Positions 124-38,003 of a stretch of DNA of 39,231 bases are shown here, one piece after another. The stretch lies in IMG/VR virus record IMGVR_UViG_3300006802_000032, positions 1 to 39,231 of that record. One strand, 5' to 3'. The stretch is from a virus. The translations under genes and the position numbers were made by a program. How positions within the stretch are numbered: position 1 is the first letter of the stretch; every line of letters begins with the position of its first letter. The notes beneath the pieces are model-generated. The model saw only the letters and a program-made list of their open reading frames with translations. It made no database searches and had not been told where the DNA came from.

Positions 124-933
124 CAACTCAAGGCGCAGGTCGGCAGCCAACGGTTGAGCACGCGCCAAGGCCAGGTCGCGCGGTTTGCTCGCGATCTGTT
201 CCGGCTCAAAGCCGAGATTATGTGCACCCACTTCACGCCCGAAAACCTCCAGGCCATGACGCAAGTCGAGGTCAATGAGGAAGTGATTGGATTGTTGCGC
301 AATCAGATGATGCGGTCTTACAGGATCGATATCGAATCAGACAGCACGATACGAGCCGACGTGGCCCGCAGCCAAGAGCAGATGACGCAGTTCCTACAGG
401 GCACGGCTCAATACGCGCAGTCCATGGCGTCAGTTTTGCAGATGGCGCCCGGCGCCACTGGCGCGGTCGTCGAGATATATGCGGCGTTCGCGCGGCACTT
501 CAAACTTGGCAAGTCTGCCGAAGATGCGCTGGAAAAACTGGTACAGGCCGCACAGCAGCCGGCCGAACCGCAGCCTAGCCCGGAGGAACAGAAGGCACAG
601 GCCGAGCTTCAGCGCATGCAAGCTGAGATGCAGATGAAAGGCCAGCAGGCGCAAGCTGACATGGCGATGGCGCAGCAGAAAGCGGAGATCGATATGAGCA
701 TGGCCCAACTCAAGGCGCAGATGATGCAACTTGAGTTGCAGACCAAGCAGCAGCTCGCATCCCTCGAAATCCAGAAGGCTGAAATGGAGATCGGCTTGAA
801 GCGGGAGGCGATGGCCATGGATCGAGAGGCAAAGGTGTTTGACATGCAGACGCGCCAGCAGATGTCTGAAATCGACATCGACGCGCGCCGTCGCAAAGCC
901 GAAGCGCAAGCACAACCGGGGGCCGCCGAATAA
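1..933 (+). CDS. Portal protein, C-terminal part (continues from 37996-39231)
   Basis: This is the downstream part of the portal gene opened by linearisation; codon 1 is base 1. Joined to 37996-39108 it gives a 681-residue protein. The portal forms the dodecameric channel at one capsid vertex through which DNA enters and leaves. This part holds the end of the conserved core, roughly window residues 1-150. A long Q/M/A-rich coiled coil follows at about residues 180-300, built of alternating MAQQK, LKAQM and LQTKQ-like units, as expected for the barrel or crown helices of podovirus-type portals. It ends in TAA overlapping the next ATG by one base, which suggests translational coupling. Confidence 0.9.
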   Translation: MAALQQLYQQREQVKQTIYEVTGLSDVLRGATNPNETLGAQQLKAQVGSQRLSTRQGQVARFARDLFRLKAEIMCTHFTPENLQAMTQVEVNEEVIGLLRNQMMRSYRIDIESDSTIRADVARSQEQMTQFLQGTAQYAQSMASVLQMAPGATGAVVEIYAAFARHFKLGKSAEDALEKLVQAAQQPAEPQPSPEEQKAQAELQRMQAEMQMKGQQAQADMAMAQQKAEIDMSMAQLKAQMMQLELQTKQQLASLEIQKAEMEIGLKREAMAMDREAKVFDMQTRQQMSEIDIDARRRKAEAQAQPGAAE

Positions 934-2367: not shown

Positions 2368-3342
2368 ATGGCCTCTCCAAACTCGACCTTCACCGAAATG
2401 GTCACGACCACGATGCGCAAGCACAAGCGCAAGGTGGTCGATAACGTGACCAAGAACAACGCGCTTTTGACGCTTCTCAAAGAGCGCGGCAACATCAAGA
2501 CCGACGCCAGCGGAGGTTACGAGATCACCCTCCCGCTGAGCCACGCGGAAAACGCCACCTATCAGCGCTATTCAGGCTACGACACGATGAATATCGCGGC
2601 GTCTGACGTCCTGTCGGCGGCGAAATACGACTGGCAACAGGTGGCGCTGCATGTGACGGCTTCCGGCCGGGAGCTCCGCATGAACAACGGCGAGGAGCGC
2701 TTGATCAATCTGGTCAAGGCGCGCACTGAAGTTGCTTTTGCGACCGCCGCCAACAACATGAGCATCGACCTCTACTCGGACGGCGCTTTGACCAATCAGA
2801 TCGGCGGCCTCAAGCATATCATTCAGGCGGCCGGCACCGGCACGGTAGGCGGCATCAACTCGTCGACCTACACGTTCTGGAAAAACAAGTTCAACGAGAT
2901 CGCGGCCGGCGGCGGAACCACGGTAACGTTCGCCAACCTCAAGGCGGCCATGAACGCTCAATGGATGGCCCAGACGCGCGGCCAGGACAAGCCTGATCTG
3001 CTGGTGTCAACTCACGACCTGTTCGCGATCTACGAGAGCGGACTGCAGGATAACCAGCGCTATGGCGACGCCAAGCTCGGTTCGCTCGGGTTTGAAAGTC
3101 TAAAGTACAAGTCGGCGTCGATCATTTTCGACGACAACACCAATTTTGGCACCACGGACGAATTGGTCTACTTCCTGAATACCAAGCATCTCTATCTCAT
3201 GGAGCACCCGGACGCGCGCTGGACCGAGGATGATGAGAAGGTGCCTGTAAATCAGGATGCCGTTGTTGTGCCCATCTATTGGATGGGTCAGCTGTGCTGC
3301 TCGAATCGGTCCCTGCAGGGCCGTATCCACGACCTCGCCTAA
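2368..3342 (+). CDS. Major capsid protein (HK97-fold type expected)
   Basis: A 324-residue protein following the scaffold gene. It begins with a helical N-arm (TFTEMVTTTMRKHKRKVV, then NNALLTLLKERG). Next comes a beta-rich part with ITLPLS at about 53, then a mixed domain with the helix RLINLVKARTEVAF near 110-125. The C-terminal segment contains FLNTKHLYLMEHPDARWTED and ends with the strand VVVPIYWMGQLCCSNRSLQG. This order (N-arm, E-loop, spine helix, P-domain and hydrophobic final strand) suits the HK97 fold of podovirus capsids. A homologous copy of the N-arm recurs at 35771-36031. The spacing after the scaffold stop is 12 bases. Confidence 0.88.
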   Translation: MASPNSTFTEMVTTTMRKHKRKVVDNVTKNNALLTLLKERGNIKTDASGGYEITLPLSHAENATYQRYSGYDTMNIAASDVLSAAKYDWQQVALHVTASGRELRMNNGEERLINLVKARTEVAFATAANNMSIDLYSDGALTNQIGGLKHIIQAAGTGTVGGINSSTYTFWKNKFNEIAAGGGTTVTFANLKAAMNAQWMAQTRGQDKPDLLVSTHDLFAIYESGLQDNQRYGDAKLGSLGFESLKYKSASIIFDDNTNFGTTDELVYFLNTKHLYLMEHPDARWTEDDEKVPVNQDAVVVPIYWMGQLCCSNRSLQGRIHDLA

Positions 3343-5205: not shown

Positions 5206-7085
5206 TGCTGCTCGACCGCGCCCCTCAAGCAATCAACCGGCGCCGCGCCAAGGTTGTCAGGCCGACAACGATCCCGGCACCAGTTGAGGGATGGGATGCG
5301 TCAACGGCGCTGGCGACGATGAGTCCGGCGCGGGCAGTGCAACTCAAGAACTGGTTTCCGCAGCCCGGCTATATCGAGGTTCGGCGGGGTTCACGCTATC
5401 ATTCATGGGATATTGGTGCGTCTCCTAAGACCGTTTCGTCCATTGATACCGGAACAGAAACCCTGACGTCCAATAGCCACGGGTTCTCCGATGGTGACGA
5501 GGTCAAGGTCTATGCGACAACGACAATCCCGGCCGGGTTGTCGGACAACCGCACATATTACATTGTCAGCAGCGCGACCAATACATTCAAACTGGCGACG
5601 ACGTCGGGCGGCTCTGCCGTTGACATAACGTCGGCCGGCTCGGGCACGATCTACGTTTGGAAGCTGACCGAGCCCGACGTCGAAACACTGATGACGTGGC
5701 ACGGGCCGGCGTCGTCAAAGATGTTCGCGGCCGGTGGTGGTGCGATTTGGGACGTCACGTCGCGGGCCAAGGCGGTCCCATCATCGCCTGGTTATTCCAG
5801 CAACCGCTGGCAATGGACGATGATGACGACCAGCGGCGGCACCTATCTGTGGTGCTGCAACGGCACGGATGCCGCAGTTCACTACAACGGAACGACTTGG
5901 GCGGCGCCGTCTTTGACCGGCGTCACGGCAACTGACATCATCGGTGTCAATGCCCACAAAAAGCGCCTTTGGTTTGTCGTCAAGGATTCGACGAAGGCAT
6001 ACTACCTTGCCACTGAGGCCATCGCGGGTGCCGCAACGTCGTTTGAGCTTGGCTCGCTGTTTACGCGCGGCGGCTACCTCATGGCCATGGGAACCTGGAC
6101 GCGCGACGGTGGCTCGGGTGCCGATGATTACGCGGTGTTTGTTTCAAGTCGGGGGCAGGTCGCCGTGTACCAGGGCACCGATCCTGCAGCGGCCGACACA
6201 TGGGCGCTTGTCGGCGTGTTTGATTGCCCCGCACCGATTGGGCGGCGCTGCTTTACAAAGTTTGGCGGCGATCTGCTGCTGATCACCGTTGAAGGCGTCT
6301 ACCCGCTGTCGCAGCTGCTTTCGGTCGATCAGAGCCAGGTCAGCCGCGTTGCAATCTCCAATCGCATCTCGGCCGCAATGACGGTGGCGGCGCAGTCCTA
6401 TGCGAGCAATTGGGGATGGGAGGCGTGCGTCTATCCCAAGGGCACGCAGCTGATCATCAACATCCCGACCAGTGAGAACGCGACGGCAGTCCAGTACGTC
6501 ATGAACACGCTCACAGGGGCGTGGTGTGAGTTTGACGGCATGAATGCGAATTCATGGGTCGTCTATGCGGACAATCTTTATTATGGCGGGCAAGACGGAA
6601 CTGTCTATCAAGCAGATGTAGGTTCTGCCGATGTAGACACGCCGATAACGGCAGTCGGCCAAACTGCCTATTCGGCGTTCGGCTCGCCCGGTTCGGTCAA
6701 ATACTTCTCAATGATCCGGCCGCTTTTGTTAACGTCTGGGTCCCTTCGTCCGGCTATCGGCGTGTCGGTGGACTTTCAGGAAACGTCCACTTTATCAACG
6801 TTGACTGCGGTCACGTCAACGACGACTGCCCGATGGGATTCGGCGCGGTGGGATATCGATGTTTGGGCCGGAGATGACGTAGAGGTGAACGACTGGACTA
6901 ACACCATCGCTATCGGCGCTTATGCGTCAATCAAGTTCCAAGCGCAGACGGGTGCGGTGTCGGGCGGCTCGTTGTGGGGCGTGTCGAAGTGGGGCGTCGA
7001 TCTGTGGGGTTCGCAGGGTGGCGAGACGCAGACCATGAAGATCAATGGGTTTGTCGCGCTAGCGGCAGCTGGCGGCTTCATATAG
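5205..7085 (+). CDS. Putative tail nozzle / stabilisation protein (tail-tubular-B-like)
   Basis: A protein of about 626 residues, mostly beta-strand. ATG 5205 is chosen because it overlaps the upstream stop; GTG 5202 would add one residue. Near residue 40 the sequence LKNWFPQPGYIEVRRGSRY fits nozzle or propeller proteins of podophages, which extend the portal-adaptor tube. An inserted repeat-like domain at about 85-150 (GDEVKVY, PAGLSDNRTYYIV, NTFKLATTSGG) resembles the FCCH-like insertion seen in many phage tail proteins. Several WD-like short repeats (IWDVTS, RWDSARWDIDVW, VDLWGS) fit a beta-propeller. Role: the distal tube for DNA ejection, inferred from position and fold character. Confidence 0.75.
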   Translation: MLLDRAPQAINRRRAKVVRPTTIPAPVEGWDASTALATMSPARAVQLKNWFPQPGYIEVRRGSRYHSWDIGASPKTVSSIDTGTETLTSNSHGFSDGDEVKVYATTTIPAGLSDNRTYYIVSSATNTFKLATTSGGSAVDITSAGSGTIYVWKLTEPDVETLMTWHGPASSKMFAAGGGAIWDVTSRAKAVPSSPGYSSNRWQWTMMTTSGGTYLWCCNGTDAAVHYNGTTWAAPSLTGVTATDIIGVNAHKKRLWFVVKDSTKAYYLATEAIAGAATSFELGSLFTRGGYLMAMGTWTRDGGSGADDYAVFVSSRGQVAVYQGTDPAAADTWALVGVFDCPAPIGRRCFTKFGGDLLLITVEGVYPLSQLLSVDQSQVSRVAISNRISAAMTVAAQSYASNWGWEACVYPKGTQLIINIPTSENATAVQYVMNTLTGAWCEFDGMNANSWVVYADNLYYGGQDGTVYQADVGSADVDTPITAVGQTAYSAFGSPGSVKYFSMIRPLLLTSGSLRPAIGVSVDFQETSTLSTLTAVTSTTTARWDSARWDIDVWAGDDVEVNDWTNTIAIGAYASIKFQAQTGAVSGGSLWGVSKWGVDLWGSQGGETQTMKINGFVALAAAGGFI

Positions 7086-8044: not shown

Positions 8045-8924
8045 TCCGATCTTTGAGCAGGCGACACAACTAGATCAGGGCGAACTCGACTATCGCGACC
8101 AGATCAAAGGGACAGCCTTCAACGCCTACCAGGGGGGGCTTGGCGCTTTGCAGCAGACACAGGACCGCGTAAACCGTGTCGAAACTGATCCCTATGGCCT
8201 GACGCAAGCCGGCGCGGGTCGCCTGCACGGATTTGCGCAGCCAGCGAATCTCAACAGCGGCGCCGCGTTTGATCGCGCGTATCAGACAGCATCGGCCAAC
8301 ATCGAACCGCGCATGGAACGCGCCCGCGCGGCCATGGAAAACCGCCTTCGCAACCAGGGGCTCGATCCGACGTCGGAGGCTTATCGCTCGCAAATGAACG
8401 ACCTTGGCTTGCAGCAGAACGAGGCCCGTAACGATCTGACGACGCGGCTGCAAGGGCAAATGTTCGGACAGGACTTGGCGGGACGGCAGCAGGGTTACAG
8501 TGAAGCGGCCGGACTATTCGGCACGGGCCAGAACGCGGCGCAGCAGCTGTTTGGGCAGGACTTGTCTGGGTCAGGGTTCGGCCTGCAACGTGCTTCGCAG
8601 CTGGCCTCGCAGGGAAGATCTGGCATGGTTGATCCAATCTTGCAAACTGGCGCATCGCCTTATGCCAGCGTCAATGTTGGAAACGTCGATCTTACCAACC
8701 TTTATGGCCAGCAGTACCAGCAGCAGATGAATAACTATAACGCTGAAATGCAGCAGCGTAACGCCATGCTCGGCGGGCTAGGTGCTATCGGCGGCACGCT
8801 GCTAGGTCTGCCGATGGGTGGGGGCTTGTCGTTCGGTGGGTCGCTCGCCAACCGATTCATGGGCGGGCTTGGAAACGTCGGATTGCAAAACTGGAATAAC
8901 GGCACGACCGTTACAAGGAACTGA
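7863..8924 (+). CDS. Putative internal virion / DNA ejection protein 1
   Basis: A 353-residue protein rich in Q, G, N and A, starting MSSIFKSPKPPAP. The N-terminal 90 residues include NRINQTGPFGSISY and LDYRDQIKGTAFNAY, patterns typical of proteins placed before podophage ejection proteins. The middle (about 130-220) is helical with RMERARAAMENRLRNQGLDPTS, a motif of a structural helical repeat. The C-terminus is glycine-rich with a hydrophobic stretch (LGGLGAIGGTLLGLPMGGG) that could insert into a membrane. Such proteins leave the capsid with the DNA to form a channel across the cell envelope; this assignment is by position and composition. Confidence 0.65.
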   Translation: MSSIFKSPKPPAPMDVGKIAGEQRAQNTNSAYQQAAFNRINQTGPFGSISYRQSGTDAQGNPIFEQATQLDQGELDYRDQIKGTAFNAYQGGLGALQQTQDRVNRVETDPYGLTQAGAGRLHGFAQPANLNSGAAFDRAYQTASANIEPRMERARAAMENRLRNQGLDPTSEAYRSQMNDLGLQQNEARNDLTTRLQGQMFGQDLAGRQQGYSEAAGLFGTGQNAAQQLFGQDLSGSGFGLQRASQLASQGRSGMVDPILQTGASPYASVNVGNVDLTNLYGQQYQQQMNNYNAEMQQRNAMLGGLGAIGGTLLGLPMGGGLSFGGSLANRFMGGLGNVGLQNWNNGTTVTRN

Positions 8925-8926
8925 CT

Positions 8927-10243
8927 ATGGCCGGATACATCATGAGCCCCGACGACGTCGAGCAGTTTCGTCGGCAGGGCGCCCGCATGGGCCAGCTGGC
9001 AACCGATGCATCTCCTGTTGGGCATTGGACTCAAGCGCTGGCGCGTGTGCTGCAAGGCGGCGTCGGCTCGATGTATTCAAGCCAGGCATCTCAAGGCGAG
9101 CAGGCCGGACGTGAAAGCGCGCGGAACGCGCTAGCGGCGGCCATGGTCGGCAATGATCCGATGAAGGTGGCGGCATCTGGCGTCAACAATCCATGGATTG
9201 GGCAGCAGGGTATGCAGCTTGGCCAGATGATGCAGGCCAGACAGCAGGCGGGCGCGGCTGATGCGCACCGTAAGGCGCAGCTGCAATTGGCGCAGGCGCA
9301 GGAGGCCAGGGCGGCACGCATGGCTGATGCGCAGCTGTCTCAACTGAAAATGCAGACGCCTGAAGCCAGGGCTCAGATGGCGCAGCAGTACGGCATACAA
9401 CCGGGCACGTCAGAATATCGCCAGTTTGTGCTCATGGGCACGCTGCCGAACAATAACGACGTGCGCACGTCTCTGCAACCCGTCTACGGCACGGACAAGG
9501 ACGGCAACCCGGTGGTGATGCAGCCCCGGTCGGATGGCGCCATGGTGCAATCCAAGATGCCCGACGGCGTGACCATATCGCGCCAGCCGATCAAGGTGGA
9601 TGCCGGGACCGAGACTATCCTGCTTGATCCGATCACCAGGCAGCCAATCGCGCGGTTGCCAAAGAACGTGGCAGAGGCAGCATCGCTCAGGGAGCAGGGC
9701 GAGGCACAAGGCAAGGCGGCGGCAGATCTGCCTCGTGTCGTCGACAACGCATCGCGGACGCTGCAGACAATCGAGCAGATACGGAGCCATCCTGGCAAGC
9801 CGTATGCGCTTGGCGCTGCCGCCATCGTGCCTGGCATTCCAGGCACGCAGCAGCGCGGGTTTATCAACCTAGTTGAGCAGGCCAAAGGGCAGACGTTCCT
9901 TGAGGCGTTCAACAGCTTGCGCGGCGGCGGCGCCATTACAGAGGCGGAAGGTGCGAAGGCCACTCAAGCGTTGGCTCGTCTCGACCGTGCGCAGAGCCCG
10001 CAGGACTTTGAGCAAGCGCTTGCGGATTTGGAAGGGGTTGTTCGGGCGGGGTTGACGCGGGCACAGGGCAGTGCCAATCGCGGCCCGCAACTGCAACAGC
10101 CCGGCGCCGCGCCCAATGCTGCGGCTCGCCAGCCGGTGGCGCCCGGTTCCTACGTGTTTGATCCGGCGTCGGGGCAGCTCGTGCCACAGGGCCAATCTGA
10201 TCGAACTCGAGCTCGCACCACGATTGAAGGCATCGGCCGATGA
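8927..10243 (+). CDS. Putative internal virion / DNA ejection protein 2
   Basis: A 438-residue protein. The start GTG-free context CTGACTATGGCC follows the previous stop by two bases. Residues about 85-150 form a long alanine/glutamine-rich helix (QARQQAGAADAHRKAQLQLA). Near 295-365 lies a conserved-looking helical domain (FINLVEQAKGQTFLEAFNSL, GGGAITEAEGAKATQALARL) that I recognise from ejection proteins of many proteobacterial podophages. The C-terminus is basic (TRARTTIEGIGR). The last four bases overlap the next start (ATGA), implying coupled synthesis with protein 3. Confidence 0.7.
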   Translation: MAGYIMSPDDVEQFRRQGARMGQLATDASPVGHWTQALARVLQGGVGSMYSSQASQGEQAGRESARNALAAAMVGNDPMKVAASGVNNPWIGQQGMQLGQMMQARQQAGAADAHRKAQLQLAQAQEARAARMADAQLSQLKMQTPEARAQMAQQYGIQPGTSEYRQFVLMGTLPNNNDVRTSLQPVYGTDKDGNPVVMQPRSDGAMVQSKMPDGVTISRQPIKVDAGTETILLDPITRQPIARLPKNVAEAASLREQGEAQGKAAADLPRVVDNASRTLQTIEQIRSHPGKPYALGAAAIVPGIPGTQQRGFINLVEQAKGQTFLEAFNSLRGGGAITEAEGAKATQALARLDRAQSPQDFEQALADLEGVVRAGLTRAQGSANRGPQLQQPGAAPNAAARQPVAPGSYVFDPASGQLVPQGQSDRTRARTTIEGIGR

Positions 10244-34212: not shown

Positions 34213-35184
34213 ATGCCACGCCGGACATGGTCTCAATGGGCGCAGTCGCGCTCAGCTCACGTTTGGGTAGGAGAAGGGGTTATCGCGTTTGCCCTCTGCT
34301 GCTTTGCGGTCTCGGCCTACTTCAACGCTCGCTATGCCGGCAGTCTCGGCCAAGACGATGCGATGCAGACGGCCATGAAGATCGCCGGGTTTAGCATCGC
34401 CGCCCTGCTCGCCCTGCTTGCCATCGGTAAGCATCTGATCGATACCGACAAGTTTCACGGCGTTAAGGCTAAGGCTCTGATCCTCGTGGCATGTCTGGCC
34501 GTAGTTGAAGTCTGGTCCGCGATGGGTTCCATCGTCACCGGCCGCAGCGATATGGTCGGTTCCCGCAAGATCGAAGCAACATCGGTTGCCAACGCAACGG
34601 CAGACCGAACGCGTTTGCAGGCCGAGCTTGCCAAGCTCAAATCAACCCCGCCAGCGGCCACGCTTCGCGCCCAGATCCAGGGTATGCAGGCCCAGACGTT
34701 CTACAAAGCCACGAACGCCTGCACCACGAACACAGGCCCATATAACAACTCATGCCGCCGATATGCCTCTGTCGCCGCCCAGCTCGGCACGGCAGAGCGC
34801 AAGGAAAGCCTAGAGGCGCAGCTTGCGGCGGCAACCGGCACCATCGCCCATGCCAAGGGCGCGGCGCAGTCCGGCGCTGATCCCCAATCGGCCGCCCTTG
34901 CCACAACGCTCGGATTCATGGGCATCATGGCGAGCCCTGACACTATCGGTCTGCTGGCCCCGCTCGGCATCGCCCTTGTTCTGATGCTTGCTGGCTGGTG
35001 GGGAATCGAGATCGGGTTCGCCATTCGCGGGATCGAACTCGTGGCCGGCGCTGCAAGACCCGCCGCCGCACTCAACGACAACGTGCGGCAGTTCCAGGCG
35101 CCATCGTCAACTTACAGCCCTCCGAATGGGCCACTGTCTCGCATCGAGTGGAGCGGGCAGACCAGCATAGCTAAGGTGGCATGA
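34213..35184 (+). CDS. Multi-pass membrane protein with periplasmic/cytoplasmic coiled coil
   Basis: A 323-residue protein with a CGGAGG site before ATG 34213. Transmembrane helices at about 20-38, 57-73, 86-106 and 245-268 (GVIAFALCCFAVSAYF, AGFSIAALLALLAIG, ALILVACLAVVEVW, LLAPLGIALVLMLAGWW). Between helices 3 and 4 lies a long soluble, partly coiled part (RTRLQAELAKLKSTPPAATL, ERKESLEAQLAAATGTIAHA) with three cysteines. I recognise the overall type from other rhizobial phages; no function is established. It might act in membrane take-over or exclusion. Confidence 0.65.
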   Translation: MPRRTWSQWAQSRSAHVWVGEGVIAFALCCFAVSAYFNARYAGSLGQDDAMQTAMKIAGFSIAALLALLAIGKHLIDTDKFHGVKAKALILVACLAVVEVWSAMGSIVTGRSDMVGSRKIEATSVANATADRTRLQAELAKLKSTPPAATLRAQIQGMQAQTFYKATNACTTNTGPYNNSCRRYASVAAQLGTAERKESLEAQLAAATGTIAHAKGAAQSGADPQSAALATTLGFMGIMASPDTIGLLAPLGIALVLMLAGWWGIEIGFAIRGIELVAGAARPAAALNDNVRQFQAPSSTYSPPNGPLSRIEWSGQTSIAKVA

Positions 35185-35429
35185 TGAGCCAGGACGCAAA
35201 GCTGCTTCCTATCGTCAAGGCGAAACTGGACAAGGCTAAGGGACTATCCGTTCTTATCGACGGTCCCCTATCCTTCTGCATGTGGGTCGCCGTGGCCACG
35301 CTCACGGCCATCTTCATTGCCACGGTCGCCAAAACAGCGGGGATTTATCCCAAGTGGATGATTATACCCACTGCGGAATACCTGCAACTGCTGTATGCTG
35401 CAGGGGTGGTGTATCTGCTGAGGCATTGA
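35181..35429 (+). CDS. Small membrane protein with two helices
   Basis: An 82-residue protein overlapping the previous stop (ATGA). The hydrophobic segments are LSFCMWVAVATLTAIFIATV and YLQLLYAAGVVYLL. The last 12 codons and stop lie in the first copy of the 39-bp repeat that also carries the next gene's ribosome site. The function is unknown. Confidence 0.6.
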   Translation: MMSQDAKLLPIVKAKLDKAKGLSVLIDGPLSFCMWVAVATLTAIFIATVAKTAGIYPKWMIIPTAEYLQLLYAAGVVYLLRH

Positions 35430-35433
35430 GATG
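35395..35433 (+). repeat. 39-bp direct repeat, copy 1
   Basis: Identical to 35735-35773. It contains the end of the membrane-protein gene, a GAGG ribosome site and the ATG of the helix-turn-helix gene. The two copies are 340 bp apart, start to start. Confidence 0.9.
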
Positions 35434-35733
35434 ATTCCTATCCACAAGACAAGGACGAACTACATTGCGGCATCGTCTCGCCGAGACGAAGTTCTTCATC
35501 GAAGGCTATGTGGCGAAACTCAGTCTAGTATCGCCAAAAGCCTTGGCGTTTCGGTCGGCCGTGTTCGGCAGATGGAAGCGTTAGCCTTCAAGAGGTGGTA
35601 TGATGTGTGTCACGAAGTGTCATGCGCCATTGATAGCCTTGAAAATGAGGCGGGTGCTTTGTCTCGGATGGAAGCCGCGATAGCAAGCGGTTCATTCAAT
35701 CCTGACCGCAGACGGCAAGAGAAGCATAAGTGA
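35431..35733 (+). CDS. Sigma-70 region-4-like helix-turn-helix protein
   Basis: A 100-residue protein. Residues 20-57 (EVLHRRLCGETQSSIAKSLG, then VSVGRVRQMEALAFKRW) match region 4 of sigma-70 factors: the VS..RVRQ.E..A...W pattern is that of the recognition helix for -35 elements. The rest is helical, with no region 2, so it is not a full sigma factor. It could be a phage regulator acting on late or host promoters. The gene is bounded exactly by two perfect 39-bp repeats. Confidence 0.72.
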   Translation: MIPIHKTRTNYIAASSRRDEVLHRRLCGETQSSIAKSLGVSVGRVRQMEALAFKRWYDVCHEVSCAIDSLENEAGALSRMEAAIASGSFNPDRRRQEKHK

Positions 35734-35734
35734 C

Positions 35735-35773
35735 ATGCTGCAGGGGTGGTGTATCTGCTGAGGCATTGAGATG
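35735..35773 (+). repeat. 39-bp direct repeat, copy 2
   Basis: Perfect copy of 35395-35433. It places a GAGG ribosome site and ATG in front of the Tat-like gene at 35771. The two copies have different bases on both sides, so the repeat is exactly 39 bp. Confidence 0.9.
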
Positions 35774-36031
35774 GACGTTTCCCGCCGTGGTCTGTTGACC
35801 GGCCTGGCTTCGCTTCTCGCGGCGCCTGCTATTGTCCGCGTCACCAGCTTAATGCCGGTGAAGGCGTTGGGTCCGCCTGAATTGGTTCTGCCGTACACCT
35901 ACGGTGAAAATGAAACATTCTCACAGTTGGTAACGCAGACAATGAGGCGTCATCGGAGCCTGGTTATAGCTAACATCACTGAAAACAACGCCCTGCTGAG
36001 CATGCTCAAAGAGCGCAACCGGTTGACCTAG
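35771..36031 (+). CDS. Tat-like leader fused to a major-capsid N-terminal fragment
   Basis: An 86-residue protein with two parts. Residues 1-31 look like a twin-arginine signal: SRRGLLTG with R5-R6, a hydrophobic run (LASLLAAPAIV) and APAIVRVTSLMPVKA, a start that recurs in small phage proteins. Residues 46-86 (ENETFSQLVTQTMRRHRSLV, NITENNALLSMLKER) align with residues 5-43 of the major capsid protein (about 21 identities in 38 positions), then stop. At DNA level the two copies are divergent, so this is not a recent duplication. It may be a remnant, an assembly factor or a secreted peptide. Confidence 0.7.
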   Translation: MDVSRRGLLTGLASLLAAPAIVRVTSLMPVKALGPPELVLPYTYGENETFSQLVTQTMRRHRSLVIANITENNALLSMLKERNRLT

Positions 36032-36068: not shown

Positions 36069-36386
36069 GTGCCGCGCGGTGGTGCAAGAGCAGGTGCAGG
36101 ACGCAAGAAGGGCGCCAAGTCCAAAATGAGCGAGCTTCGGCAACGGATCGCAACCATGGCCGTGCTGGAAGCCGAAATCACGCCGTTGCACGTCATGCTG
36201 CAGGCCATGGCCAACGCCTGGAACCGGGGCGACCAAGACAAAGCGGCAGCATTCGCTAAAGAGGCAGCGCCCTACGTTCACCCGCGCCTCGCCAACATCG
36301 AGCACAAGGGCGATCCTGAAAACCCGCTTGAGACCGTCACACGGATCGAACTCGTTGCGCCTACGCCAGGGCATGGCAATCGATGA
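36069..36386 (+). CDS. Putative terminase small subunit
   Basis: A 105-residue protein from GTG 36069 with CGGAGA upstream. The start (MPRGGARAGAGRKKGAKSKM) has the G-R-K-rich DNA-binding tail typical of small terminase-type proteins. The centre is helical (VMLQAMANAWNRGDQDKAAA), with APYVHPRLANIEHKGDPE near 74-91. The small subunit recognises the packaging site and stimulates the large subunit, and it lies just upstream of it. The packaging site is not identified. Confidence 0.7.
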   Translation: MPRGGARAGAGRKKGAKSKMSELRQRIATMAVLEAEITPLHVMLQAMANAWNRGDQDKAAAFAKEAAPYVHPRLANIEHKGDPENPLETVTRIELVAPTPGHGNR

Positions 36387-36661
36387 GATCGACCGAAGAA
36401 TGGGCTGAGCGCATCGCTGATTTTGTAAACAAATTACCCACTAGGCCACGCGCTTTAGTGGTGCCGCCTGCTGATTTTGAAGCGTTCAAAGTAACGGTGC
36501 CCTTAATGTGGCGATACTACCTTACCGCAGACCCTCGGGAGAACCTGCTACTCACCATTCTTGGTCCGCGAATGATCATTGTGAAGGGGCCGCCAGATCA
36601 AACAGAATGGGTAGCAGAGACAGAATCGGCGGCCGAACCGCATGGCAACCGTTCAAGTTGA
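36383..36661 (+). CDS. Small hypothetical protein between the terminase subunits
   Basis: A 92-residue protein that overlaps the small-subunit stop (ATGA) and the large-subunit start by 20 bases. Its base composition is more AT-rich than that of its neighbours (for example TTTTGTAAACAAATTACCCA in the first third), suggesting later arrival. It has segments RALVVPPADFEAFKVTVPLM and NLLLTILGPRMIIVKGPP. The function is unknown; its place suggests a link to packaging. Confidence 0.6.
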   Translation: MRSTEEWAERIADFVNKLPTRPRALVVPPADFEAFKVTVPLMWRYYLTADPRENLLLTILGPRMIIVKGPPDQTEWVAETESAAEPHGNRSS

Positions 36662-38003
36662 GCTGCCGCCGAAGCTCGTTCCCATCTTCTCAGGTCAAGC
36701 GGACGTTAGGGGTGCGTGGGGCGGACGCGGATCCGGCAAGACCAGATCATTTGCCAAGATGACCGCGATCCGCGCCATGATGTGGGACAGGGCCCACCGG
36801 GAAGGGATCATCCTTTGCGGCCGACAGTTCATGAACTCCCTCGACGATAGTTCGATGGAGGAGATCAAGGCGGCCATCAGGTCCGAGCCCTGGCTTCATG
36901 AGCACTTCGAGATCGGCGAGAAGTTCATACGCACAAAGTCGCGCCGCATCGCCTACAAGTTCGCCGGCCTCGACAGGTCGATGGACAGCATCAAGTCAAA
37001 GTCGCGCATTTTGCTCTGTTGGGTAGACGAGGCCGAGCCCGTTACCGAGGAGGCATGGATCAAACTGATCCCAACGTTACGCGAAGAGGACAGCGAGCTA
37101 TGGGTTACATGGAACCCGGAAAGCAAGCGGTCGCCAACGCATCGACGGTTCAGGGAAAGCAGGACCGACCCTCGTGTGAAAATCTGCGAGATCAACTGGC
37201 GCGACAATCCATGGTTCCCGTCCGTACTCGAGCGGACGCGGCAGCGCGATATGCGCGACAGGCCCGATCAATACGATCACATCTGGGAGGGCGCGTTCGC
37301 GACGGTCTTCGAAGGCGCTTACTACGTCAAGGAGTTGATCGCCGCCAGGGACCAGAACAGGATTAAGGCGGTTAGCGTAGACCCACTGTTGCCTGTGCAC
37401 ACGGCATGGGACCTTGGCATCGGTGACAGCACTGCGATTTGGTTCTTTCAGGTCGTAGGCAAGGAAATCCGCGTCGTCGACTTCTACGAGAACCATGGTC
37501 AAGGGCTTCCCCATTACGTCGCGATGCTCACGGTTAAGGGCTACCGCTATGACGACGATTGGGTTCCACATGACGCCAAGGTCAGGGAATTGGGCACCGG
37601 CCGAACGCGGATTGAGACGCTTGAAGGGCTGGGCCGCAAGCCGCGCCTGGTGCCCAATCATACATTGCAGGACGGTATCAACGCGGTGCGAGAGACGCTG
37701 CCGTTTTGTTGGTTCGACGCGCAACGTACCGACGTTGGTTTAGACGCGCTGCGCCAATATCGCAGCGAGTACAAAGAGGACACGGCTGTTTTCAACGACC
37801 GGCCCTTACACGACTGGACGAGCCACGCGGCCGACGCCTTCCGTTACCTCGCGATGGCCTGGCGCGAGATGCAGCCGGAAAAGCCGAAAGAGCCGCCGAA
37901 GGATCGCGTCGTGTTCGAGATCGTGGATGGCCAGCTGCGGAGCAACATGACGGTGCGAGAGATCATTGAGGCCAAGCGGCGAAAGAAGGCGATGAATGGC
38001 TGA
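36642..38003 (+). CDS. Terminase large subunit
   Basis: A 453-residue packaging motor. The ATPase domain has Walker A GGRGSGKT (27-34) and Walker B LLCWVDEAE (D130, E131). The nuclease domain has the RNase H-like acidic positions D258 and D263 in HTAWDLGIGDSTAIW, and a last conserved block DWTSHAADAFRYLA near 398-411. This is the phage terminase_3-type architecture. It cuts concatemers and pumps DNA through the portal. Its stop overlaps the portal start by eight bases. Confidence 0.9.
   Translation: MATVQVELPPKLVPIFSGQADVRGAWGGRGSGKTRSFAKMTAIRAMMWDRAHREGIILCGRQFMNSLDDSSMEEIKAAIRSEPWLHEHFEIGEKFIRTKSRRIAYKFAGLDRSMDSIKSKSRILLCWVDEAEPVTEEAWIKLIPTLREEDSELWVTWNPESKRSPTHRRFRESRTDPRVKICEINWRDNPWFPSVLERTRQRDMRDRPDQYDHIWEGAFATVFEGAYYVKELIAARDQNRIKAVSVDPLLPVHTAWDLGIGDSTAIWFFQVVGKEIRVVDFYENHGQGLPHYVAMLTVKGYRYDDDWVPHDAKVRELGTGRTRIETLEGLGRKPRLVPNHTLQDGINAVRETLPFCWFDAQRTDVGLDALRQYRSEYKEDTAVFNDRPLHDWTSHAADAFRYLAMAWREMQPEKPKEPPKDRVVFEIVDGQLRSNMTVREIIEAKRRKKAMNG

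Follow-up and report, generated by a model that had tools for sequence, protein, structure and literature searches.

Among the closest described counterparts of the locus studied here is Tab, the tail assembly blocker of the JBD26 prophage, which blocks virion assembly and, like the present gene, is a phage accessory gene lying beside terminase genes (PMC10884400). Tab acts on the virion of another phage, an activity that might be extended to the present gene by analogy only, and, unlike the present gene, it targets the tape measure protein and is paired with an anti-Tab (PMC10884400). In the account of Tab we found mention of neither an export leader nor a capsid-derived segment (PMC10884400), and the likeness drawn here is one of description. 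A second point of comparison is the Tat pathway, which exports partners having no signal of their own when they are bound to a signal-bearing protein (PMC4273604, PMC10924467). The leader described below resembles those of Tat substrates (TIGR01409) in having RR followed by [FL][LI], a moderately hydrophobic stretch, a basic residue near the cleavage region and a small-x-small site, whereas Tat substrates are typically folded enzymes and the cargo here is a short segment derived from a virion protein. Satellite-encoded modifiers of the capsid, P4 Sid among them, act on capsid subunits. The present gene can be likened to Sid and to the capsid trigger of CapRel, as small or capsid-related factors that change the fate of capsid subunits, but we know of no capsid-derived trigger or capsid modifier composed of an export leader and a capsid segment.

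The window, by which we mean the whole 39,231-bp IMG/VR virus record IMGVR_UViG_3300006802_000032, encodes an 86-residue protein, MDVSRRGLLTGLASLLAAPAIVRVTSLMPVKALGPPELVLPYTYGENETFSQLVTQTMRRHRSLVIANITENNALLSMLKERNRLT, whose N-terminal leader, noticed as an RR-type signal in a sequence-only reading of this DNA, contains RR, a hydrophobic stretch and APAIVR. That reading had also aligned the remainder with the phage's own capsid, and the alignment is borne out: residues 47–85 match capsid residues 5–43 without gaps, with 21 of 39 positions identical and 32 similar (82%; BLASTP, E=3e-14), the start proposed earlier, residue 46, being one residue off. When the protein was compared with the whole record in six frames, it matched itself and the capsid alone (capsid E 2.4e-11). 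The match persists at the profile level, both with a profile built here and with PHROG 9953 “major head protein”, the sole PHROG reported, which covers residues 47–84 at profile positions 6–43 (E 0.0065); NCBIfam NF033394 (capsid_maj_Podo) covers residues 49–84 at positions 1–36 (E 0.14). Residues 47–85 are thus homologous to the N-arm of these capsids, but the protein holds only 39 of the ~324 capsid residues (~12%), an intact capsid being encoded elsewhere in the genome, and an HK97 fold is therefore impossible for it. The window capsid was modelled as an HK97 fold with moderate confidence (AlphaFold, pLDDT 69), and the best Foldseek match of the model is the cyanophage Mic1 capsid (E 4.6e-10). 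In this model, the captured piece is the N-arm, with an extended N-terminus and two short helices (19–28 and 32–39), and stops before the E-loop.

Table 1. Features of the leader gene, its surroundings and the related capsid gene in the window.
Feature	Position	Strand	Basis
Complete major capsid protein (HK97 fold, 324 aa), of the family from which the fragment derives	2368..3342	+	PHROG 9953 E 9e-86; modelled fold (AlphaFold) with Foldseek matches among solved capsids
First copy of the 39-bp direct repeat, covering the end of orf 35181-35429 and the beginning of the HTH gene	35395..35433	+	Exact repeat
Sigma70-region-4-like HTH gene, just upstream of the leader gene and between the two 39-bp repeats	35431..35733	+	Pfam Sigma70_r4 E 8.8e-7; absent from L004
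39-bp direct repeat, copy 2; gives the leader gene its RBS and start codon	35735..35773	+	Exact repeat
Ribosome-binding site GAGG, 7 nt 5' of ATG	35760..35763	+	Sequence
Leader-capsid-fragment gene, 86 aa	35771..36031	+	Open reading frame; matches by BLASTP and by profiles
Tat-like leader MDVSRRGLLTGLASLLAAPAIVRVTSLMPVK, residues 1-31	35771..35863	+	Aligned with leaders of other viral contigs
Linker, residues 32-46	35864..35908	+	Outside leader and capsid match; no relatives detected
Capsid N-arm-like segment, residues 47-85	35909..36025	+	54% identity to capsid 5-43; own-family profile E 2e-10
Probable small terminase subunit, directly downstream of the leader gene	36069..36386	+	PHROG 15261, without assigned function, E 4.5e-16; small terminase matched only weakly, E 0.15; position before TerL
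Large terminase subunit (TerL)	36642..38003	+	Pfam Terminase_3 E 9.7e-24

The earlier suggestion that the protein belongs to an unknown class of phage proteins with leaders has strong support. A scan with a degenerate DNA pattern for APAIVR..xLMPV, in which neither RR nor position was required, gave 69 matching stretches among 2.9 million viral contigs and six among ~85,000 species genomes, mostly alphaproteobacterial (host inference uses these six genome matches only), and nearly all matches lie at the beginning of a small ORF. A further 48 matches, unchanged in architecture, came from two relaxed patterns. Small ORFs with the same leader, and the leader-capsid fusion itself, were thereby found on other viral contigs, the family extending over more than 100 uncultured contigs, which are metagenomic and often partial; because some loci are near-identical copies, the counts given here are of distinct sequences and not of independent lineages. 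That the family exists and that its pieces derive from virion proteins is, in our judgment, practically certain. No match to the leader was obtained by tblastn at E<=10 among 50,697 catalogued phage records with the window and consensus queries, a meaningful negative because SEG masks the window query in part but not the consensus; a search for related loci with the full window protein found none. In the literature, no description was found of the leader motif, of exported or truncated capsid pieces as such, or of duplicated capsid genes of this kind, and the family of leaders joined to virion pieces has apparently not been described previously.

The shared leader follows the pattern RRx[FL][LI]...APAIVRxxSLMPV. 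RR is present in all 73 distinct first-scan matches, usually 13–14 residues upstream, although the pattern made no demand for it, and this invariance indicates that targeting matters. Position +4 is F or L and position +5 L or I in nearly all of these matches (SRRGLL in the window), and a basic residue follows the hydrophobic stretch in most leaders. Conservation of the APAIVR..SLMPV block exceeds the requirements of Tat, though that of APAIVR and LMP is partly a product of the search pattern; copies without LMPV, found by profile, do exist, and the last position varies among V, I and L. The cut-off of the Tat model TIGR01409 was passed by only one of the 10 members scanned (17.2 vs 16.7), two others falling below it, and the window protein gave a weak match to formate_TAT alone (E 0.13). 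We consider it likely that the leader uses Tat.

The C-termini that follow the leader are ~35–135 residues long and vary from contig to contig. For many contigs the complete or nearly complete record was retrieved, and each C-terminus was searched against the genome that carries it. At E<0.01, a protein of the same record was matched by 25 of 75 C-termini, compared with 0 of 75 reversed and 1 of 150 shuffled sequences. The targets comprise 22 major capsid proteins, called by direct PHROG scan or by profile grouping, two portals (one a weak match) and one protein without assigned identity, and the capsid targets fall into six or more families (PHROGs 212, 283, 334, 9953, 1357 and 3437). Our own profiles give a source for 36 of 117 distinct C-termini at E<0.01 (reversed control, 0 of 117), namely capsid for 32, tail collar for two, portal for one and an unannotated 451-aa protein for one; PHROGs backs the tail-collar assignment of L161 and L162, and for 81 C-termini no source was detected. 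Pieces of the N-arm are the commonest cargo, but middle (L186, L195, L219, L169, L207) and C-terminal (L175, L167, L228, L200, L422) pieces of the capsid also occur, and the L167 and L200 records each hold two leader genes with different capsid segments. The pieces in L167 and L228 had been considered portal-derived from a YGRSPAMD motif, which was ruled out as the matches lie in the capsid. The recurrent fusion of one leader to pieces of different capsid families is not explicable by a single accident. Conversely, when 25 records were searched with their own capsids, the matches outside the capsid gene were leader ORFs, apart from three other frames that lie in two of the records.

The reverse strand of L390 carries, besides a leader-N-arm gene and an intact capsid gene, two leaderless ORFs that resemble capsid residues 135–256 and 308–350 (reverse-complement offsets 5321–6020 and 1543–2065). 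One leader subfamily (L391, L398, L404, L408, L418, L431) has a conserved C-terminus of 100–130 residues (...SGLQTAAIESRADEKA...) under purifying selection. In another (L188, L220, L399, L411), the C-terminus bears a Cys-rich motif, [PR]RC..C....GMC..TGGPL, which by its residues is possibly metal-binding.

Selection was estimated by NG86 on short sequences, and the values are rough. Pairs of leader-borne genes mostly show dN/dS of 0.15–0.4, in the leader and the C-terminus alike, which means that these are kept genes, not wreckage, and very probably functional ones. For the fragment alone, pS and pN are 0.90 and 0.28 between L402 and L189, and 1.00 and 0.31 between L428 and L193; since pN is far below pS where neither member of the pair is a capsid, the constraint was acting after fusion. 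The protein-level constraint inferred earlier from the window thus stands for the family, whereas the window piece and capsid by themselves (pS 0.74, pN 0.32), which use different codons at 11 of 21 identical residues, are only suggestive. What was not supported is the idea of a remnant: the frame is intact, leader-borne pairs are under purifying selection and no frameshifted capsid copy lies around the gene. A frameshifted full capsid pseudogene, named beforehand as a finding that would speak against the proposal, was not seen, nor was the other such finding, a lack of any capsid match in profile searches, and the leader gene has neither the broken frame nor the relaxed selection of a capsid pseudogene. 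These data define a family of small phage accessory genes in which a Tat-type leader is joined to a piece of 30–100 residues from a virion protein, mostly the capsid and often its N-arm, with the piece under protein-level selection.

The pieces point to independent captures and differ in their closeness to the resident capsid. That of the window scores 51.6 bits to its own capsid clade and 23.5 bits to other leader-borne N-arms; the pieces of L189 and L402 are alike each other, while those of L191, L175 and L187 are nearer another phage's capsid than their own (58% vs 38% for L191).

Across the family, leader genes are packed tightly against their neighbours, frequently with a 3-nt overlap with the upstream gene. 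A unique genomic niche was considered and ruled out, as the neighbours are varied late genes, terminase being the most frequent. An integrase is present in 10 of 41 records, nine of them over the curated cut-off. The window capsid gene would lie some kilobases beyond the terminase genes if the record is circular. L004, a relative of the window phage with a 90% identical TerL, has neither the leader gene nor the HTH gene, and the leader gene is therefore accessory. In L004, orf81 is followed almost directly by the small terminase gene, ~18 bp replacing window positions 35437–36010, and homology picks up again within the last codons of the leader ORF. The repeat-flanked HTH gene of the window, absent from L004, looks like a recent small insertion. 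At the place of the leader gene, L004 has (~2196–2234) a 12-codon ORF, MFAGEAEPEPTR, starting from the equivalent ATG, which could be either a deletion scar or the state before insertion. Among 49 records related by the window terminase and capsid, none had a convincing leader and two gave marginal matches only, which makes the gene a sporadic accessory one.

What the product does can be proposed only tentatively; the decoy assembly peptide put forward in the earlier reading may be right. The best overall explanation, in which we place limited confidence, is that the piece would serve as a bait bound to a capsid-binding partner, handled by Tat and interfering with assembly. Because the leader has Tat hallmarks and Tat exports bound partners, a segment of the capsid interface is plausible as such a bait. 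The piece might still bind its usual partner in the capsid, which could be capsid subunits, from related phages or from competitors, or some other protein that binds capsids; the leader would then bring the bait, possibly with the partner bound to it as in “hitchhiker” export, to the inner membrane or through it. The partner would thereby be withheld from productive assembly, and the gene would be an accessory interference gene. Interference by the bait is somewhat doubtful in itself, but where it occurs, the partner is probably the capsid subunits of a competing phage. The main difficulties are that a model of capsid poisoning alone does not account for the tail-collar and portal pieces and that a piece resembling the phage's own capsid risks self-poisoning, no antidote having been identified; a protein exported alone would, in addition, leave the compartment of capsid assembly. 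More broadly, repeated fusion of one leader to interface segments taken from various capsid, portal and tail proteins may have produced a modular interference arsenal of interchangeable genes, whose products would bind the corresponding protein of a competitor, or a host sensor of it, and eject it through Tat or sequester it, but we consider this doubtful.

Two further readings dispense with a carried partner or with export, and we regard each as unlikely. The protein could be exported alone and act in the periplasm or at the cell surface, in superinfection exclusion, receptor masking or envelope disruption, the capsid pieces being ready-made folds. The Tat-like leader and the soluble C-termini, none of which (0 of 117) has a membrane-like segment, would suit this, and the tail-collar pieces (L161, L162, L423) could plausibly work at the surface; capsid-specific conservation, however, persists after fusion, which a generic scaffold would not need. 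The net charge of the C-termini is mixed (60 negative, 36 positive), which does not suggest a cationic membrane-active peptide, and an envelope-disrupting peptide of that kind was rejected. Alternatively, the piece could poison assembly directly in the cytoplasm as a dominant-negative interface peptide, with the leader as a membrane tether or incidental. The pieces are mostly elongated interface elements, the N-arm especially, and the fragments of several lineages end at the same capsid position, both of which agree with such an inhibitor, but self-poisoning is left unexplained and the invariant RR argues against an incidental leader.

Less probable again is a decoy for host defence proteins that sense new capsid, portal or tail proteins, where the bait would occupy or remove the sensor and leave the real capsid unseen. 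Capsid proteins directly trigger CapRel (PMC9712102), the recurrent sources of cargo are capsid, portal and tail proteins, and divergence from the phage's own capsid would suit binding without activation. The CapRel trigger, however, itself activates, so that a fragment might trigger rather than shield; these hosts have no known sensor of this kind, nor a known binding site for one, and the need for an export leader is not obvious. It is hardly credible that the genes are functionless leftovers from capsid duplication through illegitimate recombination, as the sporadic distribution and the repeat-flanked small insertion in the window might suggest, given that leader, frame and architecture are alike on more than 100 contigs, that selection acts on both parts and that leaderless capsid pieces are almost absent from the same genomes, which largely refutes this reading. 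Equally remote is a sequence archive in which the pieces would be donors for capsid gene conversion, for although the L428 piece shares 70% identity with the capsid of its own phage and the L172 leader gene lies 66 bp from its capsid gene, an archive needs neither leader nor intact frame, and synonymous differences between piece and capsid are almost saturated, making recent conversion unlikely for most.

Returning to the bait with its Tat leader, if the proposal is true, phages would here be making an unusual use of the Tat pathway. The findings suggest that capsid segments are used outside the capsid, in conflict between phages or between phage and host, and the family offers a ready list of natural capsid-derived peptides as candidates for assembly inhibitors or immune decoys.

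The N-arm codons of the capsid gene are also the site of a further observation. In L107, a relative of the window phage, and also in L108, a group I intron (RF00028, E 3e-6; L107 8235–8964) splits the capsid gene after residue 27, and the intron of L107 contains an endonuclease-like ORF (8443–8934).
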